DNA from: Actinomycetales bacterium
Lineage (GTDB): Bacteria; Actinomycetota; Actinomycetes; Actinomycetales; Microbacteriaceae
NCBI GenBank assembly: GCA_015655415.1
Contig: JAATFB010000022.1
Coordinates: forward strand, 1 to 64,000
Reading direction: 5' to 3'
DNA: 64,000 nucleotides
Part shown: piece by piece, positions 24,329 to 38,933 of the stretch
How positions within the stretch are numbered: the stretch's first letter is position 1
How the letters are laid out: each line of letters begins with the position of its first letter
Made by a program: the position numbers and the translations under genes
Notes under the pieces: model-generated
Database searches by the model: none
Told to the model about the DNA's origin: nothing
The model's input: the letters and a program-made list of their open reading frames with translations, nothing else

Positions 24329-24970
24329 TCACACCCCTCTCCTGAGATAGAGGGCGGCACCAAGCTGCTCGGCGCTGGGACGATCGTCGCCCGCGACGTC
24401 GGCGATCGTCCATGCCAGCCGGAGCGAGCGGTCGTATCCGCGCATCGTGAGGGCTCCGCGTTCCAATGCGCGGTCGAGCACCGCCGTGCTTCCGCGCGGG
24501 AGGCCTCTGGCCTGCTCGCGGAGCCAGGGGCCGGGCAGCTGCGCGTTGATGCGCCAGGGCGTGCCGCAGAGCCGCCGCGCGGCGACCTGACGCGCCCGGA
24601 CGACGATCGCGCGCGCCTCCGCGGTGCTGGTGCGAGCCGCTGTGGCTCCGATGGCCAGCTGTGCGGGCGTGATCCGCCGCACCGACAGCCTGATGTCGAT
24701 CCTGTCCAGCAGGGGGCCGGATATCTTCGCCAGGTACCGACGACGCACGGACGGGGCGCACGTGCACTCCGCGTCGAGCACGCCGTACTGCCCGCACGGG
24801 CACGGGTTGGCGGCCATGATCAGCTGGAACCTGCCGGGAAAGGTCGCACTCGCATTCGCGCGATGGATGCGGATCTCACCCGACTCCAGAGGCTGTCGCA
24901 ACACGTCGAGGACCGCCGAGGGGAACTCGGGCGCCTCCTCAAGGAAAAGCACACCAAGAGCCGGGCTCAC
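24329..24970 (-). pseudogene. comM: ComM (Mg-chelatase-like AAA ATPase) C-terminal fragment, separated from its N-terminal half by the inserted element
   Basis: GVLFLEEAPEFPSAVLDVLRQPLESGEIRIHRANASATFPGRFQLIMAANPCPCGQYG...RRRYLAKISGPLLDRIDIRLSVRR; its first codons derive from the element. Confidence 0.93.
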
Positions 24971-25235
24971 TCCCTACCTTTCACGGCCTCCGAGCCGTCT
25001 GGGACCCCAGATCAGGCCCGCATCTCTGCCAGTTCGCTGGCTCCGAAATCGTGTCTGGAAAGAACTTCCTTGCATTGGTCCAGTGCCCCGGATCGCACCA
25101 CGACCCTTGGAAGAGACCGAAACGCCCGACCGGGCTGCCGCTCTCGACCAGGCGACTAGACCTCGGGCCGGCGATCGTCAGGGAGCCCTGTGGACAACTT
25201 CTGCAGCGATTTCCCGATGAGGAGATACTCGTGCG

Positions 25236-25457
25236 ATGGACCTCGATGATGACTTCGACCCAATGGAACCTTTGTTGCACGCCGCGGCCGGACCTATCAC
25301 GATCCGCGGCGATGTCATTCGTTGGCTTGAAGAATCTAGCTCCTGGCCGGACCTGATGGACGGCGCGGAGAACGTCGTACCTGAAGCGCCGTCGGGTCGG
25401 AGTCACCACGACAATGTGTTCGATCTCGATACCTACCGGCGACGCCGTCCGAGCTGA
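25236..25457 (+). CDS. Small acidic protein of unknown function in the element
   Basis: ATG 25236 with GAGGAG upstream; MDLDDDFDPMEPLLHAAAGPITIRGDVIRWLEESSSWPDLMDGAENVVPEAPSGRSHHDNVFDLDTYRRRRPS. Confidence 0.5.
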   Translation: MDLDDDFDPMEPLLHAAAGPITIRGDVIRWLEESSSWPDLMDGAENVVPEAPSGRSHHDNVFDLDTYRRRRPS

Positions 25458-25478
25458 TTGCCGGGCCTGAACGATTCG

Positions 25479-28187
25479 TCAGCTACTTGCGATTGGTGCG
25501 AGAGCGCGGCGCCTCGACAGGAGCGCGACATCCTTTGAGATGACGTGGCGTTGGAGGTGAGCGAGAACGGCCTGCTGGGTCTCCGGAGTCCAGAAGATCT
25601 GGAGGCGTTCTCGAGCTCTTGTGACCGCGGTGTAGAAAATGGCGTGCGAGATGTCCTCTTCGTTGGCGTCGGTGATCACGATCTTGACCGAGTCGTACTC
25701 GAGGCCCTGTGCCTTGTGAATCGACACGGCGTATGCGATCTGGAATGGCACGTTCGTGTTGAGCGAGTCGTCGTCGGCGTCACTCGTGTCACGCTCGTAG
25801 ACGTTGAATCGGACTGTTGCGTCTCCGAGCCATTCAAGCTCTTCGCCATCTACGTCGAACGCACTGATGGTGCGGTCGAGTTCGACGTCGAACTGCACCC
25901 GGTCGGGATATGGCTGGATCCCGACGATCTTGCCTTTCAGGTTGTTGTAGATGACCCGCCCGAATCGTTCGGTCTCGTTGAAGAGGATGGGGTCGCCCAC
26001 TTTGTAGGTCGTGACGCCCCAGGTGATGCCATCCCCGGGGTTGCTGCTTTGAAGGAATCGGTTGATGTTGTTGATGCCGTAGAGGCCGTCATAGTTCAGG
26101 CAGAGGATGATCTCGTCCTCGCGTTGCGGCTCGAACAGCGACTCGTCGAGTGTTGTGGAGTAGCCGTTGTGTGCGATGACCTCGGCGATGTCGTCCTCGA
26201 GGTTGCGCACTTTGTCCCAGAACGCGAGGAGTGCCTGGTTCTTCGTGCGAAATGGTGTGGTGAGTTCGAACACCGAGTCCTTCGGGATGAAGGAGCGGAT
26301 TGCGTTGAACCAGTTGCCGAACTGGATCGACTCGATCTGGTAGACATCGCCGACGAGCACGAGCAGTTTGAATGAGGTCTTGTCCAGCACCTTGATGAGG
26401 TCGGCGTTGCTGACCGTGCTGCACTCGTCGATGACCAATAGGTCGTATTCCGGGTCTGTGGCCATGCGGTAGATCTGGCTGCTGATCGTTCGAAAGGTGG
26501 AGTCCTGGGCGGTGACTCGACGCTTGAGGTTGTCGACTGCCGGGTTGGTGTGTGCCAGGAAGAGCTTTTGCTTGTCGTTGAAGTAGCTGGCGATGTGGTT
26601 GACCATGGTCGACTTGCCCGTGCCGGCCGCACCGTAGATCAGGGCGATGCGGGACTGGTCGAAGAGACTCTTCAGCGCGTCGCGCTTGGCGTCGTCGTCG
26701 ATGCCGCGGGGCACCTCGTCCAGCCACCGCTGGACGGCCGTGGAGTATCCGTCGATGCCAGACGACGCGGATTCCTGCAGCTTTTCGATGATCGTGACGG
26801 TGTCATTTTCGTAGCCGCGGATGAAGACGTGGCCCATGTCCTTTTCAAGGCCCCGCCAGGCTCTGTGTTTGTAGTAGAGCGCCGCGTTGTAGGTAGCAAT
26901 CAGCTGATCGAGGTCGCCCAGCTCCTCGAGGTCCTCTACGGGCGTGTAGAGGATGCCGTGGCTCTCGACGTTGTTCTTCACACGCCGGGCGAGCAGCTCA
27001 TGGGCGCGCCCCGTCACGTCGAGGCTCTCGACCAGGTCCCAGTACCTGGGATTGTGAGCTCGGAGCGACGTGCAGAACGGCATGGTGTCGAACGGGATGC
27101 ACCCGTAGTCCAGCCTCAGGTTGGAGAGACGCTCACACCCGTCTCGGTTGTACTGCGGCTTGAGGAACTGGTTGTGCATCGCCAGCATGAGGTAGCGAAT
27201 GACGTTGTATCCCGGAGCCTTCCTCCGGATGATCTGACGCGCCTGATCCAACGCAGGAAAGATCTGGGGCCTAGTGACTCTGGCCGTCCCGGCTTCCCGC
27301 ACTTCGGCATATCGTTCGTCCGACATTTCCATCAGATCGAGCAGGCTGCCCCCGCTCGTGGTGAGTCCCTGCATGACATATCGATACTCGGGGGTTCCGG
27401 TTCGCACGTCGGTGGACAAGCCGAAGAGGCGAGCGAAGTTGTCGAACTCACAGGGGCGAACGGAGACCTCCCAGTCCCGAACGATGGTGATCGGCATACT
27501 GCGCCCGAGCACGTTGATCGAGTCGCCCTGCAGCGTCAGCATTGCCGCGTACTTGTCGGTGAGGTCGATGTCGGTGAAGCCGATGATGCGATCGAACTTG
27601 CTGACCTTGTTGACTGCGCGGTAGAAGGTGACCTCGTAGTAAATCCGGCCGCCGACGAAGAACGGCCGCGTCTTGTGGATGTAGTACCGCCGACCTCCTC
27701 CCTCTTGTGAGGCCAGTCGGCCCGTCGCTTGTATCCGCTCGGCGATCTTCTCGTGATATTCGCGGAGCGACGGGTCGAGGTCGATCGGGAAGGACTCCAG
27801 GTTGGCGAGCACGTCGATTCCGCATACATCGCGAAGTAGCGTGCGCACACGCAGGAAGTATTCGTAGTACTTCAGCATCAGACGTTCTGAGGCGTCGCCG
27901 TCCATGGTGTAATGCGAGGCACTGATCTGAATGAGCCTGTGGAACCGGTGCAGAAAGTTGATCTGCTTGTTGGCGGAGCCGACCCAAGCCAAGGCAGGTT
28001 TCGTCGCCTCGTAGGTGAACTCGATCGCTCCATCAGCGCTTTGAAGGCGAACCGCGACCGCCTCGATCAGGTTGCGTGCCTGCGAGAGGAGGTTTTGCGA
28101 CAAGAGCGCGCGGTCGTCCCCCAGCGCGGCAATGTTGTCACAGATCGCCTGATCGGAATTCCGTATCTGCTCATCGACGGTGGGCAC
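25479..28187 (-). CDS. Superfamily 1 (RecD/UvrD-like) helicase with ~520-aa N-terminal extension
   Basis: Walker A IALIYGAAGTGKSTMVNHIA; Walker B YDLLVIDECSTVSNADLI; motif III VLVGDVYQIESI; motif V/VI AYAVSIHKAQGLEYDSVKIVITD...FYTAVTRARERLQIFW. Confidence 0.85.
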   Translation of the reverse strand: MPTVDEQIRNSDQAICDNIAALGDDRALLSQNLLSQARNLIEAVAVRLQSADGAIEFTYEATKPALAWVGSANKQINFLHRFHRLIQISASHYTMDGDASERLMLKYYEYFLRVRTLLRDVCGIDVLANLESFPIDLDPSLREYHEKIAERIQATGRLASQEGGGRRYYIHKTRPFFVGGRIYYEVTFYRAVNKVSKFDRIIGFTDIDLTDKYAAMLTLQGDSINVLGRSMPITIVRDWEVSVRPCEFDNFARLFGLSTDVRTGTPEYRYVMQGLTTSGGSLLDLMEMSDERYAEVREAGTARVTRPQIFPALDQARQIIRRKAPGYNVIRYLMLAMHNQFLKPQYNRDGCERLSNLRLDYGCIPFDTMPFCTSLRAHNPRYWDLVESLDVTGRAHELLARRVKNNVESHGILYTPVEDLEELGDLDQLIATYNAALYYKHRAWRGLEKDMGHVFIRGYENDTVTIIEKLQESASSGIDGYSTAVQRWLDEVPRGIDDDAKRDALKSLFDQSRIALIYGAAGTGKSTMVNHIASYFNDKQKLFLAHTNPAVDNLKRRVTAQDSTFRTISSQIYRMATDPEYDLLVIDECSTVSNADLIKVLDKTSFKLLVLVGDVYQIESIQFGNWFNAIRSFIPKDSVFELTTPFRTKNQALLAFWDKVRNLEDDIAEVIAHNGYSTTLDESLFEPQREDEIILCLNYDGLYGINNINRFLQSSNPGDGITWGVTTYKVGDPILFNETERFGRVIYNNLKGKIVGIQPYPDRVQFDVELDRTISAFDVDGEELEWLGDATVRFNVYERDTSDADDDSLNTNVPFQIAYAVSIHKAQGLEYDSVKIVITDANEEDISHAIFYTAVTRARERLQIFWTPETQQAVLAHLQRHVISKDVALLSRRRALAPIASS

Positions 28188-28353
28188 GTGGGCTCCACCC
28201 GTCAGAACACGACCACCTATCAGGACATGAGCAGCATCTCTCGACGCCTGACACGCTCCATTTCATAACTGCATTCTGCCGCTCACTAGTCACTGTCGGA
28301 GGCTTCTGGGATCGTTGCTGCGAGTCGCCCCACCACGACAAAAGGAGCTCGGC

Positions 28354-29082
28354 ATGTTTGAGCGTGCGCGGGAATACCCCAGAGCGGTGACAGGCAATGG
28401 CGCGAACGACCCCGAAGGGTCTCAGCGGGCCGCCATCGAGTGGATTGCCGCGCAGCAGAAGGCGGTCGGGGGTCAGGTACTACTGTTCGTGCCTCAGAAG
28501 AGCACCCTGAATCACTCGGGCGATCTCATCGCCCAGCTCGCGAAAGTGCCCGGCGTCGCAGTCGGGACATGGCGAGGTTACGTATCGGGATGGTCAGGCG
28601 GGCCGGTACTCGCTGCCTGGCCGTCACGCGAGAAGCTCGCCGAGATCGCAGATGATCGCCGAACCCGAGCGCTTTGCGTCATTCCTTGGGTCGACGAGGA
28701 CACTACTCCGTGGGAACAGGCGTCACAGCCGGAACTACTCGCCGGCGCGCTCGCCAAGACCAGCGCACCAAGTCTGGATCCGGTTGTCATCGTCGGGCTC
28801 ACCCACCTGACCCGGATGGTCAATCACGCCAACAACCTCGCTGGCGCGCTCGACCACAGAGATGCCGTAGCGGTCCTCCGGGTGCTGCACCGCGGAAGGT
28901 ACGCGCTTCCCGCTGATGAGGTGTACGCCTGGGCGCTCGCAAACGGGTGGCCCGCGCGCGGAGCGGAGCGACTGCGGGAAATGGCGGAAAAGATCGATGC
29001 CGGCCGAACCGTTCAGATGAAGGGCCCGTCTCCGTTGCGCCCCGAGGTACTGAGCATGTGGAAAGCCGAGGCTAACCAGTAG
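28354..29082 (+). CDS. Hypothetical protein (242 aa) divergent from the helicase
   Basis: ATG 28354 preceded by AAAGGAG; MFERAREYPRAVTGNGANDPEGSQRAAIEWIAAQQKAVGGQVLLFVPQKSTLNHSGDLIAQLAKVPGVAVGTWRGYVSGWSGGPVLAAWP...; no recognised catalytic motif. Confidence 0.75.
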   Translation: MFERAREYPRAVTGNGANDPEGSQRAAIEWIAAQQKAVGGQVLLFVPQKSTLNHSGDLIAQLAKVPGVAVGTWRGYVSGWSGGPVLAAWPSREKLAEIADDRRTRALCVIPWVDEDTTPWEQASQPELLAGALAKTSAPSLDPVVIVGLTHLTRMVNHANNLAGALDHRDAVAVLRVLHRGRYALPADEVYAWALANGWPARGAERLREMAEKIDAGRTVQMKGPSPLRPEVLSMWKAEANQ

Positions 29083-29276
29083 CCGAATACCGCCAGGCCC
29101 CGATGGTCAACAAAGCACTCATCGCGCGGGCTTTGCTCGGGCCTGACTTTCGGCACGACTGATAGCTGAGAAGGCCTTGGCGATTCGTGTGCTGCGTCGT
29201 CAGGGGTCGGTGTGAGACTCAAGAAAGCGCAAGGCTCGCCGCACTGGTGACAGAGAGATGACGGGAGGCTAGGCCG

Positions 29277-30377
29277 ATGGCTCACCGCTCACTCAATTCG
29301 AGCGATCGCGAATACTTCCTCCCTCCGCTCATCTGGCCGACCGAGTTGAGAATGCCGGCGCGCCCCCCACTGCTGATTCACCTCGATCTCGCGCAATGGA
29401 TCCGCTTTGGCCGGGTTGTCCAAGGACAGGGTGAGCCCGCATACGCCGACCTCTTGGAGGCCCTCCGACAGGCGATTCAAGCGGGACAAGTCCGCATCGT
29501 CCTGACCGGTGCGCAATACAGCGAGGTCACGAAGATCAAGGATCCGGCTCAGCGTCGCGCGTTGGCTTCAGTCATCGAGGAGCTGACGGACTTCACCTAT
29601 CTCGTTAGCCATGTCGATGTCCTGCGGCTAGAACTCCAGACCACCCTCGACAACCTGACGGGAACACGCGGCCTCGGCTGGACGCCGACCGATTTGTTAG
29701 GTAAGTCAGCGTTAAACGTTGTGGGAAGAGTCGGCGGCTTGCAGATCATTCAAGAAGGCGAGGACGTGACCGCCAAGATGCTTGCCGCAGACCCTTCGTG
29801 GGCTGAGCGCCTAGCGACGATGAATCGGATGGCTGAGCGAATGCTGCTCCAAGGACCCGACGACCAGGAGGCGGCCGAGATACGCGCGGGCGGCTACCAG
29901 CCAGAGCTGGTTGAGCAGCAGATCGTCGACAACGCAGCCCTGGAGGCCGCGTGGTCGACGCAGATCGAGAAGTACCGCGGAACCTACGTCATGCGCGACC
30001 TGGTGATCGCTCGCTACCTCAACTTGGAGCTCATGGAAATGCTCGTGCATGAGCTGATGGCGCGCGGCATCCAGATCGACGACATCTTCACGACGCCCGA
30101 GGCAGGCACTCGATTCCTGATGAGCATGCCGTCCAGCGCGGTCACCGTGTCGATGAAGGCGCAATACCACCAAGACCCCAATCGACGCTGGTCCGCGAAC
30201 GATCTCTATGACATTGATGCTCTGGCGCTTGCGCTCCCATACTGCGACATCGTCTTCGCTGACGCCTCAGCTCAGGACGCCGCACTGCGACGCGGCCTCG
30301 ACACGCACTTCGACACCATGCTTCCTCGCCGCCCCAAAGAACTGACGTCGCTGCTGCGAACACTGGCGACCGTATGA
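29277..30377 (+). CDS. PIN-like domain protein (putative ribonuclease)
   Basis: ATG 29277 after GGGAGG. Ordered acidic residues: N-terminal LLIHLDLAQWI, then AQYSEVTKI, then C-terminal NDLYDIDALALALPYCDIVFADASAQDAALRR...LDTHFDTMLPRRPKELTSLL. Confidence 0.6.
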   Translation: MAHRSLNSSDREYFLPPLIWPTELRMPARPPLLIHLDLAQWIRFGRVVQGQGEPAYADLLEALRQAIQAGQVRIVLTGAQYSEVTKIKDPAQRRALASVIEELTDFTYLVSHVDVLRLELQTTLDNLTGTRGLGWTPTDLLGKSALNVVGRVGGLQIIQEGEDVTAKMLAADPSWAERLATMNRMAERMLLQGPDDQEAAEIRAGGYQPELVEQQIVDNAALEAAWSTQIEKYRGTYVMRDLVIARYLNLELMEMLVHELMARGIQIDDIFTTPEAGTRFLMSMPSSAVTVSMKAQYHQDPNRRWSANDLYDIDALALALPYCDIVFADASAQDAALRRGLDTHFDTMLPRRPKELTSLLRTLATV

Positions 30378-31975
30378 GCAACTCGAACCCCGACGCCACG
30401 GATCCGCTTGATCCGCAAGAAGCCGATGCGCTGCTTGCGGATTTCCTGGCGCGCGCGGTGGCAATCCCGACCATTCCGAATGCCGCGGCTGAGCTTGACC
30501 AACTCGAACAGGAGATACTCGCTTCGCAGCTGAACTACCCCCACATCGTGCTCGCACTGTTCACCGTGAGCTCGGTGACCGTCAACATCGGCGACGACCT
30601 CGACGACGAGGCGCTCGTCACGACAGGGCTGGAAAGAGCGACAGCCCTGCTGTCCGCGACTCCTGACCTCGTTCTGATCTCCCAGCTGCTGCAGAACATC
30701 GCGAACGCAGAGTCGATCCTCTTCAGACTCGAAGCCAAGGAGTCAGCCGGAGGTGCCACGCCGGATCTGATTGAAAGCGACGTCCGCTTCCGCAGCGATT
30801 CACATGTCGTGACCGCACGTCGACTTTGGTCGTTCGTCTCACGTCCGCCGTCGGCGACACCCGACTCCGTGCGCTCACGCGCACTCTGCAACCTCGCCAA
30901 TGAACTGGATCTCGCAGGCCGCTGGGTCGAGGCATACTCGGCCTACGCGGACGCGCTCGAGGCAGAGCCCACAAACGGAAACGCCGCCGGCAACCGGGCA
31001 ATGCTCCTTCTTCAGCGCCTCAATGCCAGTCCACAGCAGGCCGGCCACATCGCCGCGGTGTATGAGAAGTGGGCCCGAAGGGCGAAAGAGCTTCGGGCCG
31101 AGACCGTCGCGATCGCCGGCGAGCACGCCGCGCAACTCTGGGATGCGCTGCCCCTCAGCGATGAGCCGGTGCTCGGGCACCTCAGCCACGACGGCGACCT
31201 TGACGACCCGTACCAGAGTTGGATCGTCGAGCATCGGCTTGCGCTGGTCCCGACCGTGGAGGGCCTGGGCTCGGACAGTTCACGCTGGGACACCGCCGAC
31301 ATCCTCGCCGCGGCAGCTGACAACGACGAAGGGCTGGCGCCGCGGATCTTTGCCGCAATGAATGTCCTGAAGGCAGAGTTCATCGTGGCCCGCCGCCTGG
31401 CCTTCCGAGGAGAGGTGATGACCTTCACCGAAGACGGGATGCAACACCCCGAAGACACGGGAGCCTATGGAGCAACCGGCGACGGCGCTGTCTACGGCGA
31501 GGGCCCGGCCACCCTGCTTCTCGCACAACGCAGTGCTCTCGATCTGCTCGACAAGATCGCGGTGACCGCGAACGAGCATTTCAAGACCTGTATCCAGCCT
31601 CAGAAGGTCGACTTCGCGTCCTTCTGGCGCGACACGAAGACACATGTTCTCCGACCGGAGGTCAGCACGATGGCTGGTCGACGCGCTCGACTTGCCCTCG
31701 CCGAGCTTCAGCGGGATCTCGCATCCGATGCGCTCTATCCAAACGCTCGCCTTCTTCGCAATGCCGGCACACACCGACTTGTCCACGGCACCTTAGGCGA
31801 GCCGACCGGCCCGACGAAAGAAACATTCAGCACCATCGACCTCATTGACCTGCAGGAGTCGACGATCGAAGCGCTATGGGTGGCGCGCGCCGCGTTCCTC
31901 TACCTCATCGACCTCATCGACGCCGAAACGCCAGAGCTTGATGGCCTGATGGCCGAGCTGCACTCTCAAGCCTGA
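30374..31975 (+). CDS. LA2681-like HEPN domain protein with TPR-like region (putative ribonuclease)
   Basis: TPR-like ALCNLANELDLAGRWVEAYSAYADALEAEPTNGNAAGNRAMLLL; C-terminal helical region with RNAGTHRLVH matching the HEPN R-x4-6-H motif. ATG overlaps the PIN-like stop (ATGA, 30374-30377). Confidence 0.65.
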   Translation: MSNSNPDATDPLDPQEADALLADFLARAVAIPTIPNAAAELDQLEQEILASQLNYPHIVLALFTVSSVTVNIGDDLDDEALVTTGLERATALLSATPDLVLISQLLQNIANAESILFRLEAKESAGGATPDLIESDVRFRSDSHVVTARRLWSFVSRPPSATPDSVRSRALCNLANELDLAGRWVEAYSAYADALEAEPTNGNAAGNRAMLLLQRLNASPQQAGHIAAVYEKWARRAKELRAETVAIAGEHAAQLWDALPLSDEPVLGHLSHDGDLDDPYQSWIVEHRLALVPTVEGLGSDSSRWDTADILAAAADNDEGLAPRIFAAMNVLKAEFIVARRLAFRGEVMTFTEDGMQHPEDTGAYGATGDGAVYGEGPATLLLAQRSALDLLDKIAVTANEHFKTCIQPQKVDFASFWRDTKTHVLRPEVSTMAGRRARLALAELQRDLASDALYPNARLLRNAGTHRLVHGTLGEPTGPTKETFSTIDLIDLQESTIEALWVARAAFLYLIDLIDAETPELDGLMAELHSQA

Positions 31976-32086
31976 GGTCTTTGGTTGCGGACCGGTGTGG
32001 AGAGCAAGTGACCCTCCCAGCCGCGCCTCACATCAACGGCCCCGTCCCCTTGCCACGATGATGGGTGCCCAGACCATCAACGCTCG

Positions 32087-35000
32087 CTAGACCCCGAGTC
32101 CGCGACGACGGGCTTCAGCACGTTGATCCTCCTGAAGGGCACTGCTTTCATACCCGTCAGCCAAACGTCTGAGAAGCGCGGCCGTTCGATCGTCGGCAGC
32201 TAGGGCAGCAGCTTGTTCGCGGTACTTTTTCGCGAGTTCACGCTCGGCGACGCCGCCATCCATGCTTCGCCACTCCACGCCTCGGTCGTTGTAAATGCCG
32301 CGCCCTATGCCTTGCTCAAGTGCTTCAATACGGAGGTCGTTGACGAGCTGGCGGATTGCTGTTGGTGGCCACTTGCCGTCGACCGGATCGTTGCCTGCCC
32401 GGCTTAGTAGCTCTCCGACGGCCCCCCAGGCGAGCGCCTTCTTGTTGTCGTCCCAATCGGCGATGCGCGTCGATACTTCATCGGACCAATCTCTGAGTAT
32501 CGACTCGTCAATCACTCCCGAGTCCTGCTCGCCGGGAATTGTTCTCCAGGATCGAAGAACCTTCCAGCCGCGTGAGACGATCTCGCCGTCTTGGCCCATG
32601 CGCGCCTCGAGCACTTCGACGAAACGTGCTGGCGATGTCGCCATCGAGCGGTGCAGCTCAAGCTGCCGACGGTCGTTTAGCGCGGGGAGGAACGCCCACT
32701 CAAGAAGGATGAGGCGATCCTGCATGGATGCGTCGCCCTGCAGTCTTATGGTCAGCCGATCGATTGAATCTCCCTCGGCCTTTGTACCTCCCGCCTGACC
32801 CGCCAGAAGGCTCTCCAGGGCATCAGCGATGACCTCGTTCGCGACTCCCTCGCCATGAACGTCCAGGGTTGTGACTGCCAACCCGGCCTGGCCACGCTCG
32901 ACGAGAGTTCGTGCGATCGCTTCGATTGTGGGCGCGCCTGCTTGCACAGACCACGGGTTAAATCCCGCCCAGAATGCTGTTTGGACGTCCTCGGTCTCCT
33001 GTCCGAGCTTTTCGGTTGCGCTTTCGATCGCCAAGAACTGGAAAAGGTGGGCTCTCGTCTTTGCGTTTGCGTTGGGCGTGGCGTCTAGTAGACGGACGGG
33101 CAAATCAGCATCGTCCCTGACGCGCCGGGCGAGGTAGCTCATGGCAAACCTTGATCGAGATGGCCCGGCACCGAGCAACGTCACAAGGGTTGTGTCATTC
33201 AGCGGAGTTCCTCGAGAAGCGAGTGCCCAGGTCAGAGTGCTCACGTCGGGGAGCTGTTCGGCGAACTCGAGGACCGACTCGAAACCCGAGCCCGATTCGA
33301 TCTCGTCGATGGCGGCTACCCGCAGTCGCTGTACTTCGGCGGTCTGGGCGGCCCAGTCTTCACCTCGTGGGAAGTCAATCAGCCGTGGGTATCCCGTGTG
33401 GAACAGCCATTCGTTCTTGTGTCGGGGATCAGTCGGGGTTAGGTCGTCCAAGAGTGCTCGGAGCGGCAAGAGATCCTCAGCGGGTAGCGACCAGTCGGCA
33501 GCGTCGAACTCGGTGTGGTCGGCGATCAGACTTCTCAGCTCTTCGTAGGGGACTTGCGTCTCCGCGTCGGACCATCCCGCCACGAGTTCGGCCAGCCGTT
33601 CGAGGACAAGCGCCCGCCCGTCCGAGCTGAGCTGCGGAAGCCAGCCGATCGCGGCCTTGGCATGCTCCGGGCTGGTTGCCCTGGGCAGTAGCACTGACAC
33701 AAGCTCAAACCTTCGGTCTGCCAGCTCCCCAGATGTCATGCCAGTAAGCCGGGGGCCCCACTGACGATAACGGGGTCCAGGTTCGATGACTCCGAAGCCG
33801 TCGTCGTCCACAAGGCCAGCGAAGGCATCCCAACTCGCGCCGCCATCGCTGTCAAGCTGCTCGGCAATCACTGCAAGTCTTCGGTCCCAGGGAACGGACG
33901 TGTTCCAGGTCACCGGCGACAGTGCTTTTCGGAGAGAGTCAAGCGGCCGATTGGACCAGGTCCCGCCTGGATCGATCGCGTGAAGTCGAAGCAAGACCGA
34001 CACCACCCGAGGAAGCGCAGCGGTCGACCATGAAAGGACATCGGCGGCGTGCACCAACTCGAGATGGGGCGACGAAGGCCCGAAGGTCACCGCCCCGCGT
34101 TCGCGCGAGTCCGTAAAGATCTGTTCGGGTGGCATTGCGGCGACGGCGTCTAGATAGTCGAGAACGGCGTCCGGTGCCGCTTCAGCAAGCAGCGACAGCG
34201 AGAACGGTCGTCCGACAAGAGCGGAGACTTCGAGCGGTTGAGCAGGAAGACCGAGTGCGTTGCGCACCACTCGAGCTGCGCTCGCGGAGGTCTTTGTTGC
34301 GGTGCGGGCGACATCTTCGTCGGCGCCCATGAGTGCCAGGACCATGCCGATGCCATCCGCGATGTCCCGCGAGTGCTGAGGTCCTACACCTTGTATCTGC
34401 GCCCGGATGCGTTCCGTGCCGTCCAGTTCGGCCAGCGGGTTTGCGGTTCCCAACACGGTTGCGACCTCGGACTCAAACACTGCGAGGTCCTCATCCGTGA
34501 TCGAATGCGACAGCAACCGCCAGGTGTCCGTCGGACTGACCAAATATCGATGCGCCTCAAACTCTGCGGTGGGTCGACCTTCGTTCTTCAGAATCGACGC
34601 CCAGGTTTCTGATGCATCAGCAGCATCTCCCCCGAGAAGCGCGGCGACAAATCGTCGATCACCTTCAAACTCGGCATTCCAACGAGCGACAAGTGCAAGT
34701 CGTCGCTCTCGCGCGTCTAGATCACGTGCTGCCCAGGAAGGCGTGAACAACGCCGGCTGAATTGCAAGCTCTCGGCGCAGGGTGGTGATGTCTCGACGTG
34801 CCAAGTAGCCCAATTCGTAAGCCCGATGAAACTCGACTCCTTGCGTTTCCAGAGCCTTTGCGGCGCCCTCGCTGTCGGTCGCCGGAATCTCGAGGGTGGA
34901 CATGTGGGCAGGATGCGTGAACACAAATACATGCGCGAGCGAGTTGTCGGGTATTGCGGTGACCCAAGAAGCGTTCGGGATCAGCGCCACGAGTGGACGT

Positions 35001-35791
35001 CCTGAGCTGAGGGCGGCGACGAACGCCGCCTCCTGTTCGAAAATGACCAGGCGTGCTGGGAGCGCCGAGAAGCGATCGTTATCAAGCGCGCGTTGCGCCA
35101 CCGCAGCAAACGTCGCTACCGCCGCCTCCCACTGCAATCCACCGCCACCAACGCTGGTAACTCCGGGGCTTGCCGAAAGGTCCGCGATCTGATCAACGAG
35201 CTCCTCTCGACCAGCAAGCAACACGGTGGCATCAAGCGAAACGTTCGTACTCTCGAGCCAGCGTTTCCACCACGCGGACCAGTGGATTTGACCGACTATC
35301 GGGATTCCCATGACCGACCGCATCCACGCCGAGGTGCCCGGCGCGATTGCGAGCCAACTGACGAGGCTTTCCACATTCAGCCCACGAACGGACTTCCAGA
35401 TCCCATCAGTCGTGTGCTTGTCGAACTCCTTACGCTTCGTCCACTTCTGCGTTGAGACAGCACGGTAGTGCACGTCCTTGCGGAGCATTCCCAAGGGGCC
35501 GTCGGTCCGCTTGAGGTAGTCGGACTCTGCCTTTCCATGGGCGCCTGTCTGCACTGAGGTTTCCCAGACCAACACGCCCTTGGGTACATAAAGCGATTCA
35601 CCGTTGGCCTCCACGACGAGGTCGAACCCCCCGGTACTCACTCCCGTCCCCGCGGGTGCGTCGAGAAAGACGATCTCTTCACCCGTCTCGACAATCAGGC
35701 GCGCGATCAATTCGGGAAGAACACCGTCGGAGTCGACAGCTTCAGTGCTCCAGCGAAGGATGTCATCACGAGAGATGGACTCCCAGGTCAT
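32087..35791 (-). CDS. 1234-aa protein with N-terminal PD-(D/E)xK-like nuclease motif and large uncharacterised body
   Basis: GGAGG RBS; N-terminus GTGVSTGGFDLVVEANGESLYVPKGVLVWETSVQTGAHGKAESDYLKRT; no canonical GxxxxGK[ST] found in the translation. Confidence 0.6.
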   Translation of the reverse strand: MTWESISRDDILRWSTEAVDSDGVLPELIARLIVETGEEIVFLDAPAGTGVSTGGFDLVVEANGESLYVPKGVLVWETSVQTGAHGKAESDYLKRTDGPLGMLRKDVHYRAVSTQKWTKRKEFDKHTTDGIWKSVRGLNVESLVSWLAIAPGTSAWMRSVMGIPIVGQIHWSAWWKRWLESTNVSLDATVLLAGREELVDQIADLSASPGVTSVGGGGLQWEAAVATFAAVAQRALDNDRFSALPARLVIFEQEAAFVAALSSGRPLVALIPNASWVTAIPDNSLAHVFVFTHPAHMSTLEIPATDSEGAAKALETQGVEFHRAYELGYLARRDITTLRRELAIQPALFTPSWAARDLDARERRLALVARWNAEFEGDRRFVAALLGGDAADASETWASILKNEGRPTAEFEAHRYLVSPTDTWRLLSHSITDEDLAVFESEVATVLGTANPLAELDGTERIRAQIQGVGPQHSRDIADGIGMVLALMGADEDVARTATKTSASAARVVRNALGLPAQPLEVSALVGRPFSLSLLAEAAPDAVLDYLDAVAAMPPEQIFTDSRERGAVTFGPSSPHLELVHAADVLSWSTAALPRVVSVLLRLHAIDPGGTWSNRPLDSLRKALSPVTWNTSVPWDRRLAVIAEQLDSDGGASWDAFAGLVDDDGFGVIEPGPRYRQWGPRLTGMTSGELADRRFELVSVLLPRATSPEHAKAAIGWLPQLSSDGRALVLERLAELVAGWSDAETQVPYEELRSLIADHTEFDAADWSLPAEDLLPLRALLDDLTPTDPRHKNEWLFHTGYPRLIDFPRGEDWAAQTAEVQRLRVAAIDEIESGSGFESVLEFAEQLPDVSTLTWALASRGTPLNDTTLVTLLGAGPSRSRFAMSYLARRVRDDADLPVRLLDATPNANAKTRAHLFQFLAIESATEKLGQETEDVQTAFWAGFNPWSVQAGAPTIEAIARTLVERGQAGLAVTTLDVHGEGVANEVIADALESLLAGQAGGTKAEGDSIDRLTIRLQGDASMQDRLILLEWAFLPALNDRRQLELHRSMATSPARFVEVLEARMGQDGEIVSRGWKVLRSWRTIPGEQDSGVIDESILRDWSDEVSTRIADWDDNKKALAWGAVGELLSRAGNDPVDGKWPPTAIRQLVNDLRIEALEQGIGRGIYNDRGVEWRSMDGGVAERELAKKYREQAAALAADDRTAALLRRLADGYESSALQEDQRAEARRRGLGV

Positions 35792-35883
35792 GTGTCCTCC
35801 TCAGTGTGCTCGCTCAGCACACGCTATCGCTCCAGCACCGGATGGTCGCCACCCTTCAGGTGTGCGACCTGCAGAGCGACCTG

Positions 35884-35936
35884 TGTTCCGTAAATCGGGT
35901 GTTTCACACGATGTGTAACGCCCGATTTACGGAACA
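35884..35936. promoter_or_regulatory. 53-bp near-perfect palindrome, possible operator, recombination or structured site
   Basis: TGTTCCGTAAATCGGG (35884-35899) is the exact reverse complement of CCCGATTTACGGAACA (35921-35936); the 21-nt centre TGTTTCACACGATGTGTAACG is itself nearly palindromic. Confidence 0.85.
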
Positions 35937-35953
35937 GGCGCCCCGCCGAGCCG

Positions 35954-37600
35954 TCACCATGTTGAACGCACGACAAGGCGTGCCTCGGTAGGAGCCTTTC
36001 CGGGCAGCGCGTCGATGCGGCGCACGAGGTGCCGCAGATACCGGCGCCGCTCGAGGATGTCCAGCTCTGCCCACCGGTCGGGCAGGGCCAGCTGCGGGCC
36101 GATCGGAGTGGACTGGAGCTCGATGGTGTCCAGTTCGCGCTCCAGCGTCTCGATACGCGCCTGAACATCGCCGATCATGCTCAACAGCACCTGCACCATC
36201 GCGCCCTGGAACCCGGCGGTGCCCTGCTTGTCGACCAGCGCTGTGCGCTCGGCGCGGGCGTGGCGCAGCTGCTCCATCACCGCGTCGAAGTCGGGCCGAC
36301 TACCGGCCGCGGCACGGCGCTGGCGGGCGGTCTCGAGCGCTTCCGGGGTGATCTGCGAGAAGAACCAGCCGAGCACGAACGCCTCGCCCTTGACCGCGTC
36401 GATCGTGCACCCACCCGAGCAGTTCCCCGGCCCCCGCAGCCGGTTGGCCATGCACCGGTAGGCGTGGGCGGGATACGTGGTGCCGTCCGGCGCCCTGCGG
36501 GTCTTGCTGTGGCCGTAAAGCCGCGCACCGCACTGGCAGTAGAGCAGCCCCGTCAGCAGCCATTGGTGCGTCCCCCAGGGGCGGATGGTGCGATTGTTGC
36601 TCGCCTCCGACAGCAGGTGCCGCACCCGCAGCCAGGTAGTCCAGTCACACGCCGGCTCCTGCGCGATCACCGGCTCACCCTGAGCGTCGCGGGCGACATA
36701 GTCCAGCAGGTCGATCTTCACCCCGCGTCGGTGCTCAGGGACCTGGAACATCCGATACCCGACCATCCGCGGCGAGCACAGCGAACGGTAGATCGTCGCC
36801 TCGTACACGTAGGCGCCGTCCGCCGTGGTGATGCCGTAGGCGTCCTTCCAGTGCCGGGCGATCTGCCCCAGGCTGCGCCCCTGCAGCACCATGTCCACCG
36901 CGTCCTTCAGCGCCTGGTGCTCCACCGGGTGCGGGACCAGCCGGATCCCGGTGCGCCCGAACTCGTCGGTCACCCGCGGTCCCGGCTGCCACCCGAACGG
37001 ACGGGTGCCGCCGTGATGGAACCCGGCCTCGGCCAGATGCCGCTTCGCCGCCAGCTGCCGCTCGCTCATCGAGTCCGTCTCGACCTCGGCCAGCAGCGCC
37101 TTGATCCCGGTCACGATCTTCGCGCCCGCCGTAGCAGTGTTCAGCTCCTCCGCCGAGTCCTGATGCGAGACGAGGTAGACGCTCGCGCGCTGGCACTCCG
37201 CGATCCACTCGATGCACTTCGTCGCGATGCGATTGGTGCGGTCCAGCTTCCAGAACGCGATCGCCTTCACCGTGCCGGACGCGATGCCCTCGTTCAGCTG
37301 CTTCCAGCCCTTGCGGCTGCGCGCGGCCGAAGAGCTCGCGGAGTCGTTGTCGATGAACTCCCCCATCACCGTCCACCCACCCTCGGCCGCCAGCTTCCGC
37401 ACCAGGTCGAGACGCTGCCGCTCGATCGCGTCGGCCTTGTCCTTGTGATACTTCGAGAGCCGCAGGTAGAGATAGATCGGCCGAGTACCCGGAAGGGGCT
37501 CACTCGGCCCCGTCCTGGCATAGGCCGGATAGACAACCGCCCGCATCGGACGGCTCGGTCGAGCATTACGACCTGGGATCTTCTGTTCGTTGGACTGCAT
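35954..37600 (-). CDS. Large serine recombinase / site-specific integrase
   Basis: N-terminal IYLYLRLSKYHKDKADAIERQRLDLVRKL, WKLDRTNR; zinc-ribbon LLYCQCGARLYGHSKTRR...YRCMANRLRGPGNCSGG; C-terminal coiled coil. Confidence 0.93.
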   Translation of the reverse strand: MQSNEQKIPGRNARPSRPMRAVVYPAYARTGPSEPLPGTRPIYLYLRLSKYHKDKADAIERQRLDLVRKLAAEGGWTVMGEFIDNDSASSSAARSRKGWKQLNEGIASGTVKAIAFWKLDRTNRIATKCIEWIAECQRASVYLVSHQDSAEELNTATAGAKIVTGIKALLAEVETDSMSERQLAAKRHLAEAGFHHGGTRPFGWQPGPRVTDEFGRTGIRLVPHPVEHQALKDAVDMVLQGRSLGQIARHWKDAYGITTADGAYVYEATIYRSLCSPRMVGYRMFQVPEHRRGVKIDLLDYVARDAQGEPVIAQEPACDWTTWLRVRHLLSEASNNRTIRPWGTHQWLLTGLLYCQCGARLYGHSKTRRAPDGTTYPAHAYRCMANRLRGPGNCSGGCTIDAVKGEAFVLGWFFSQITPEALETARQRRAAAGSRPDFDAVMEQLRHARAERTALVDKQGTAGFQGAMVQVLLSMIGDVQARIETLERELDTIELQSTPIGPQLALPDRWAELDILERRRYLRHLVRRIDALPGKAPTEARLVVRSTW

Positions 37601-37620
37601 TTGGAACCTCCTTTAGGAAC

Positions 37621-38568
37621 CTAGGTGTGAGGCCCGGATGGTGCCTCGTCCAGGAACAGCACGCCGTGCGAGGCGCGCACGGCCGCACCGGGACGGATCT
37701 GCCCGCTGCCGCCCCCGATGACGGCGGCAGCGGTCGCGGTGTGGTGGGGCGCCTCGAAGGGAGGCCTCGTCACCAGATCGGTGACGACGTGACCGGTCAG
37801 CGACCTGATCGCCGTCGCCTCCAGTGACGCGTCGGCGTCGAGGTCGGGAAGCAGCCCGGGAAGGCGTTCGGCCAGCATCGTCTTGCCGGCACCCGGAGGA
37901 CCGAGCAGGAACATGTGATGGCCCCCGGCGGCGGCGAGGATGAGGGCGTCCACGGCCTCCTCGTTGCCGACGACATCGGCCAGGTCCAGTGGACGCCCAG
38001 GGTCGCTCTCCCGCTCCCCGGCCGCCGGCCAGGCCTCCACGGGCACGGGGTCGAGCTCGGCTCCGTGCCGGATGGCTGCCTCGCGCAGCGAGGACACCGC
38101 CACGATCTCCGATCCCGGCACGAGGCGCGCCTCCTGCGCATTCGCAGCCGGCACCATGACCCGCGCGTGACCGGCGCGCACCGCCCCTATCACCGATGGC
38201 AGCACCCCCGGGGTGGGACGGACCCGCCCGTCGAGACCGAGCTCGCCGACGTGCACCATCGACGCCACCGACTCGGCCGGCACATCCCCGGCGGCGGCCA
38301 GCGCCGCCAGGGCGATCGCCAGATCGAATCCGCCGCCGTGCTTGGGCAGCGCGGCCGGAGACAGGCTCACCGTGAGCTTGCGCGAGGTCACCGGCAGCCC
38401 GGAGTTCGAGGCGGCGGCCCGCACCCGGCCCCGGGACTCGCCGAGCGCGGCATCCGGCAGCCCGATGACCCAGAAGCCGGGAAGACCCGGGGAGATGTCG
38501 GCCTCCACGTCGACGACGCTCGGCGTGAGCCCGACCAGAGCCACCGCGCTCGTCCGTGCGACGGCCAT
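37621..38568 (-). pseudogene. comM: ComM N-terminal fragment, truncated at the Walker B region by the inserted element
   Basis: MAVARTSAVALVGLTPSVVDVEADISPGLPGFWVIGLPDAALGESRGRVRAAASNSG...MFLLGPPGAGKTMLAERLPGLLP...ASHGVLFLDEAP|SGPHT*. Confidence 0.95.
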
Positions 38569-38933
38569 CAGCACACCCCCGTGAGGTGTTCGATCACGAC
38601 GTCGCGGTCCGATACTCCGGGCGGAGCCAGCACGGCGATCGCGTCGATCCGCAACGACCGGGGAGCGGAGTCGGACTCCTGGTACCAGAGCGAAGCCAGA
38701 CGGCGCAGCCGCGCGACCTTCGCCGGGGTTATCGCCTCGAACGGATGGCCGAACGCGGTCGGCGAGCGCGTCTTCACCTCCACGGCGACGATCGCTCCCT
38801 CGCGTTCCGCGACGATGTCGATCTCGCCCTGTGCACAACGCCAGTTGCGCGCCCTGATGCGGTAGCCGCGAGCGACCAGGTACCGCGCCGCGAGCCCCTC
38901 ACCGCGCTTTCCCAGCTCGTCCTTCTTCGCCAT
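38568..38933 (-). CDS. YraN family (UPF0102) putative endonuclease
   Basis: GKRGEGLAARYLVARGYRIRARNWRCAQGEIDIVAEREGAIVAVEVKTRS; overlaps the comM start. Confidence 0.93.
   Translation of the reverse strand: MAKKDELGKRGEGLAARYLVARGYRIRARNWRCAQGEIDIVAEREGAIVAVEVKTRSPTAFGHPFEAITPAKVARLRRLASLWYQESDSAPRSLRIDAIAVLAPPGVSDRDVVIEHLTGVC

Follow-up and report, generated by a model that had tools for sequence, protein, structure and literature searches.

The comM (yifB) gene of the Humibacter genome examined here is in two parts, which raises the question of what lies between them and how it arrived there. Within the window (the whole stretch of 64,000 nucleotides that was analysed), comM is located on the minus strand and is split by an element of 12,710 bp. 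The cut falls at the Glu codon of the ComM Walker B motif (VLFLD/E/AP). The 5' part (37621..38838, minus strand) encodes ChlI and the first half of Mg_chelatase (Pfam), covers positions 5-305 of TIGR00368, and ends in SGPHT and a stop codon; the tail beyond DEAP is encoded by the element (VLFLDEAP/SGPHT). The 3' part (24329..24970, minus strand) encodes Mg_chelatase positions 107-205 and Mg_chelatase_C (Pfam), and its reading frame begins as MSPALGVLFLEEAPEF within an arm of the element. The two parts are complementary on the Mg_chelatase profile (1-116 in the 5' part vs. 107-205 in the 3' part), and joining the flanks at the common GA yields a single unbroken ComM frame with VLFLDEAPEFPSAVLDVL. 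The GC content of the element is 62.4% vs. 70-71% in the flanks.

A first-pass annotation of this DNA had placed the element inside the Walker B/DEAP codons of comM, which is borne out by the split gene and by the frame that is restored on joining the flanks. It had also suggested looking for the empty site in relatives. We compared four other Humibacter genomes; comM is uncut (VLFLDEAPEF) in G001, G002, and G003, and G004 contains an element of another type (B, see below). The presence of an uninterrupted comM elsewhere in the genome had been named as contrary evidence. No second comM was found in the 3.16 Mb draft genome, in which the only other ChlI match covers 56 residues with 30 bits on a different contig. 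We concluded that the insertion is real, precise, and absent from these congeners because the frame is restored, the genome has no other comM, and three congeners are uncut. Since the insertion interrupts the ATPase domain at Walker B, ComM function was presumably lost.

The element encodes a large serine recombinase of 548 aa (35954..37600, minus strand), hereafter referred to as A. Its resolvase domain, recombinase domain, and zinc ribbon (PF00239, PF07508, and PF13408) all score above the Pfam cut-offs. The best match among solved structures is 9iu2, a 500-aa integrase, and the protein also matches the integrase family phrog_95. The residues R47-L-S49 and D120-R121 are invariant across eight aligned recombinases. 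Judged from these features, A is a large serine recombinase with an intact frame and conserved catalytic-motif residues. Its start codon was previously described as lying approximately 20 bp inside the junction; the ATG (37600) is instead approximately 46 bp inside the core, and the figure of 20 bp is the distance from this ATG to the comM stop codon (37621).

A contig scan with A as a single sequence returned no relatives, and an alignment-based scan returned 25. No relatives were detected on plasmids at 1e-30. Phage relatives are all less than 60% identical to A (approximately 26-27% among the matches listed), and those on viral contigs are only 22-25% identical. The family is uncommon; at 1e-60, the genomes with a relative number 6 among 299 sampled from the same taxonomic family and 5 among 396 from the order, with the window genome counted.

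When other genomes were searched for homologous recombinases beside comM, as the first-pass annotation recommended, 15 further loci, representing at least eight genera, were found in which a recombinase 64-77% identical to A adjoins comM at the same codon. The hosts are Metallococcus, Brevibacterium, Homoserinimonas, Leucobacter, Microbacterium rhizomatis, Lacisediminihabitans, Gulosibacter, and Knoellia; L081 and several metagenome bins account for the rest of the 15. In the 15 loci, A starts a few tens of bases past the truncated comM, and the comM insertions occupy one codon in one orientation throughout. Together with the intact comM of the congeners, these loci support the earlier proposal that a large serine recombinase integrated the element site-specifically. 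In four other loci (L036, L039, L059, and L084), A adjoins other DNA rather than comM, with the usual right arm present. Therefore, comM is the preferred, not obligatory, target of A, and secondary integration sites exist.

We consider it very likely (probability of approximately 0.85) that the window contains a site-specific integrative element that was inserted by its own recombinase A, belongs to a comM-targeting family, and carries host-protective cargo. Recombinase A would join a circular attP with the comM attB at the GA within the Glu codon of Walker B; this recombination would leave hybrid junctions on either side and inactivate ComM. The cargo would then shield the host, and hence the element, against phages and mobile DNA of other kinds. 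The family in Micrococcales would comprise conjugative elements, small recombinase-bearing cassettes, and recombinase-less cassettes, which share one att core and stack in tandem, with the window copy as a small, non-conjugative member. Its transfer may depend on conjugative relatives acting in trans because the window element lacks type IV secretion system (T4SS) genes and 14 of 15 comparable A loci have them. The loss of ComM may also limit removal of the element by natural transformation. In Acinetobacter, disabling ComM has been proposed to help elements persist against transformation (PMC11472951).

The extent of approximately 12.7 kb given previously for the element stands, whereas its edges (24933-37647) were refined. 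The crossover is best placed at 37646-37647 on the comM N-side, where comM identity overlaps from both sides, and at 24936-24937 on the C-side, as indicated by a comparison with relatives (both GA in the comM orientation and TC on the plus strand). The sequence GCCTC is common to both junctions, as previously noted. In relatives, the two junctions have only GA or GAG in common, and the crossover dinucleotide is, by this comparison, best placed as GA. The attP of relatives appears as an inverted repeat around GA with the arms GGTGTACTTTCC and GGAAAGTACACC; in G045, the left arm is GGTGTACTTTCCATTCCTTGCT and the right arm GTTGGGGGCTGGAAAGTACACC. The contribution of comM to the site is TTCCTCGAC-GA-GGCGCC.

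Both arms of the window element were assigned by comparison with relatives. The arm at the recombinase end, GGCACCATCCGGGCCTCACACCTAGG (37605..37645, minus strand), retains CACACC, the spacing of which from the core matches that in relatives; the remainder has diverged and has no recognisable match to the consensus. The att sites of the window element have thus diverged, and recombination activity cannot be assumed. The distal arm, GGTGTGCTTTTCCTTGAG (24938..24960, minus strand), is comM-like; it is 4 bp shorter than the consensus of relatives and reads GGTGTGCTTTTCCTTGAGGA. Compared with comM half-sites over 20 bases, it agrees at 15.6 on average, vs. 8.6-12.6 for the distal arms of six relatives, 16.8 for comM sites compared among themselves, and 12.8 for the best other 20-mer ending in GA within the element. 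The earlier statement that the attP mimics ComM is correct for this arm, which is unusual in this respect among its relatives. Together with the adjacent GGCGCCCGAGTTC, it forms an almost complete attB. The arm may have arisen by shortening of an attP arm or by capture of part of comM, and either route would require about four changes. Two features lead us to favour an attP origin, namely the D-to-E difference at Walker B and the T-rich wobble positions. The element was also scanned for internal att junctions, which would mark a hidden second cassette; none rose above chance, and it is one cassette only.

The cargo was previously described as lacking phage structural, replication, and conjugation genes. 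PHROGs identified only the integrase, the helicase, and one unknown family in the element, and no phage structural, packaging, or lysis genes. A T4SS coupling protein and a conjugation ATPase were also sought in the element, with no match and no T4SS fragments, and no excised circle, recombination directionality factor (RDF) gene, relaxase, or oriT was identified for it. Although the statement on conjugation genes is correct for the window, most A-type relatives are elements of 36-68 kb with type IV secretion genes. Apart from the window, 15 loci have a full-length A and several kb of sequence after it; in 14 of them (L049 is the exception), a coupling-protein gene lies within approximately 4 kb after A.

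The element encodes a 902-aa SF1 helicase (25479..28187, minus strand), which scores 1365.9 bits against PDC-S53 (PADLOC PDLC05035), a single-gene defence candidate. The match spans residues 1-895 of 902 and profile positions 1-895 of 900, and by this full-length agreement the helicase is a member of the candidate family. Knoellia remsis has a copy with 61% identity in its comM element, in the interval from recombinase A (119067) to the comM 3' part (approximately 155040). Divergent from the helicase gene is a gene for a 255-aa protein (28315..29082, plus strand), a partial relative of which (32% identity) is encoded close to one PDC-S53 homologue. A 366-aa protein (29277..30377, plus strand) follows, and its gene overlaps by 4 bp with that of a 533-aa TPR protein with an LA2681-type HEPN domain (30374..31975, plus strand; PF18733, 100.9 bits). 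The family alignment of the 366-aa protein has conserved LD, E, and NDxxD...YCDxVF motifs, and these motifs alone suggest a PIN-like nuclease. It has no Pfam or PDB profile match, and its AlphaFold model, with a pLDDT of 36.7, is unusable. Relatives of the 366-aa protein and the helicase were sought on viral contigs, and none were found. Another gene encodes a 1234-aa protein of a broad uncharacterised family (32087..35791, minus strand; phrog_18693). Its homologues occur on rhizobial and Arthrobacter plasmids, one of them adjoining an AbiE toxin-antitoxin pair, and a PDB profile search with the family gave nothing convincing. Several longer homologues (approximately 1320-1350 aa) are annotated with an N-terminal HTH, which the window protein lacks. 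The PDC-S53 helicase, the HEPN/PIN-like pair, and the 1234-aa protein most likely protect the host from phages or mobile DNA. This proposed role is based on homology, and several of the cargo genes lack an assigned domain. The full-length PDC-S53, its recurrence in Knoellia, and the defence systems of the sibling cassettes described below argue for the earlier interpretation as a compact defence or cargo island.

An alternative that we regard as possible but doubtful is that the window element is an immobile remnant of a conjugative A-type ICE in comM, from which the T4SS was lost and in which the att arms decayed, leaving the recombinase and cargo. The coupling-protein gene that follows A in 14 of 15 other loci is absent from the window, both att arms depart from the consensus, and in Knoellia a comM element with T4SS genes carries PDC-S53. 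However, the frame of A is intact with conserved catalytic-motif residues, and the element contains no T4SS fragments. Moreover, the other Humibacter element, of the B type, is small and complete, which indicates that small size is a recurring state.

This B-type element contains a recombinase of a second lineage, B, which is approximately 50% identical to A and forms a separate clade with full support. In Humibacter sp. RRB41 (G004, L053), B is located at the same comM codon with Gabija and a Dsr1-like SIR2 protein. No remnants of recombinase B were found in the window. Five relatives of the window element (G045, G192, G683, G684, and G687) have internal junctions at which the common left arm and GA are followed by the right arm of another element. 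These junctions are direct evidence that comM elements form tandem arrays in five genomes because the left arm-GA meets another element's right arm, not comM. In G192, an A element (191211-136926) is followed by a B element (136926-118084). In G045, an A element is followed by a 7.7 kb type I restriction-modification (R-M) cassette without a recombinase and then by a B cassette of 8.0 kb. A single internal junction is present in each of G683, G684, and G687. We considered whether A and B are two recombinases of one element, and rejected this, as internal junctions lie between them in G045 and G192. A third right-arm type (approximately GAGGCWCGCGAGATMACAA) was seen after the common left arm in Nesterenkonia (L104 and L109) and at the G045 R-M cassette (C1:199563).

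The sibling cassettes carry Gabija and a Tmn-like protein in G192, Lamassu-like genes in G045 (with the type I R-M system in its separate cassette), Hachiman in G687, and a PD-T4-6-like kinase and PDC-M36A in G684. The block containing Gabija and recombinase B is 95% identical over 6.2 kb between G004 and G192, which belong to two genera; this identity indicates that the module probably moved recently between genera. The distal cassette of G683 (M. rhizomatis; L113:1268-5117) is 3.85 kb in length and contains a SecA2-like translocase gene and an HTH regulator without a recombinase. No recognised defence system was found in this cassette.

SCC elements use a Ccr large serine recombinase and one fixed site, form tandem arrays that include recombinase-less cassettes, and carry defence or resistance cargo. 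The comM family resembles them in its large serine recombinase, fixed site, tandem and recombinase-less cassettes, and putative defence cargo; these arrays were observed in relatives, and the window holds a single cassette. However, the SCC target is rlmH rather than comM, and some members of the comM family are conjugative. Recombinase A scores only 30.7, 33.7, and 17.3 bits against the CcrA, CcrB, and CcrC models, the cut-offs of which are 700-900, and is thus far below them (33.7 bits vs. a cut-off of 900). We tentatively speculate, without regarding it as probable, that comM in Micrococcales is a dedicated docking site of an SCC-like system with two recombinase lineages, one core, and stacking cassettes. 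The distal arm of the window element would then be attB-like, and integration would rebuild a usable attB (GVLFLEEAPEF) at the far end, such that the site stays open for a further cassette.

A reversible switch, in which precise excision under competence conditions restores ComM, appears improbable. The comK prophages of Listeria are reported to excise as such a switch, the joined flanks give the exact ComM frame, and the comM insertions are constant in codon and orientation; however, no recognisable RDF gene is present, and any large serine recombinase insertion allows precise restoration. A Tn7/AbaR-kind transposon, as AbaR elements insert in Acinetobacter comM (PMC11472951), or a small prophage is contradicted by the gene content, which includes a large serine integrase and no Tn7 transposition, phage structural, lysis, or replication-initiation genes, and we give these options almost no weight.

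The integrative element proposed here belongs to a known kind, as comM-type genes have already been published as targets of large serine recombinases. According to Durrant et al. 2022, 12.4% of site-specific large serine recombinases target Mg-chelatase (ComM-type) genes, and competence genes are enriched as targets (PMC10083194). Those elements likewise place a site-specific large serine recombinase inside a comM-type gene. In contrast, that study is a statistical target survey, and its available text does not describe tandem arrays, a core common to two recombinase lineages, or the present cargo (PMC10083194). The Acinetobacter AbaR islands also interrupt comM, and some carry the defence systems CBASS and Zorya; however, AbaR is Tn7-like, and its recombination chemistry and host phylum differ from those of the window element (PMC11472951). 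The A-type relatives resemble actinobacterial ICEs in having coupling-protein and conjugation ATPase genes after the recombinase (PMC3218068), whereas the window element lacks conjugation genes and no comM or chelatase target was found in that paper. In the open-licence papers searched, neither tandem SCC-like arrays at comM nor comM/Mg-chelatase islands were found to be described for Micrococcales. Two features look new, namely the SCC-like stacking seen in Micrococcales and the resemblance of the window element's distal end to attB.

Evidence from other phyla already points to competence genes as preferred targets for the insertion of mobile DNA. The present results add to it and provide a clear system for asking whether elements benefit from disabling transformation. 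The common core, tandem arrays, and apparent recent movement of a defence module make comM a place to seek new actinobacterial defence genes, with the HEPN/PIN-like pair and the 1234-aa family as candidates. Genetic tools for these bacteria might also use the attB/attP pairs as sites.

Among the A-type loci, L044 and L046 are in bins labelled Microthrixaceae and Acidobacteria, and have a Micrococcales-type junction between comM and recombinase A; they are probably mis-binned contigs. The A-type conjugative elements L043, L040, L041, and L042, from the group Leucobacter/Homoserinimonas/Microbacterium, carry their own dprA (PF02481; 18591-19616 in L043), and the chromosomal dprA is also located directly after the comM 3' part in this group.
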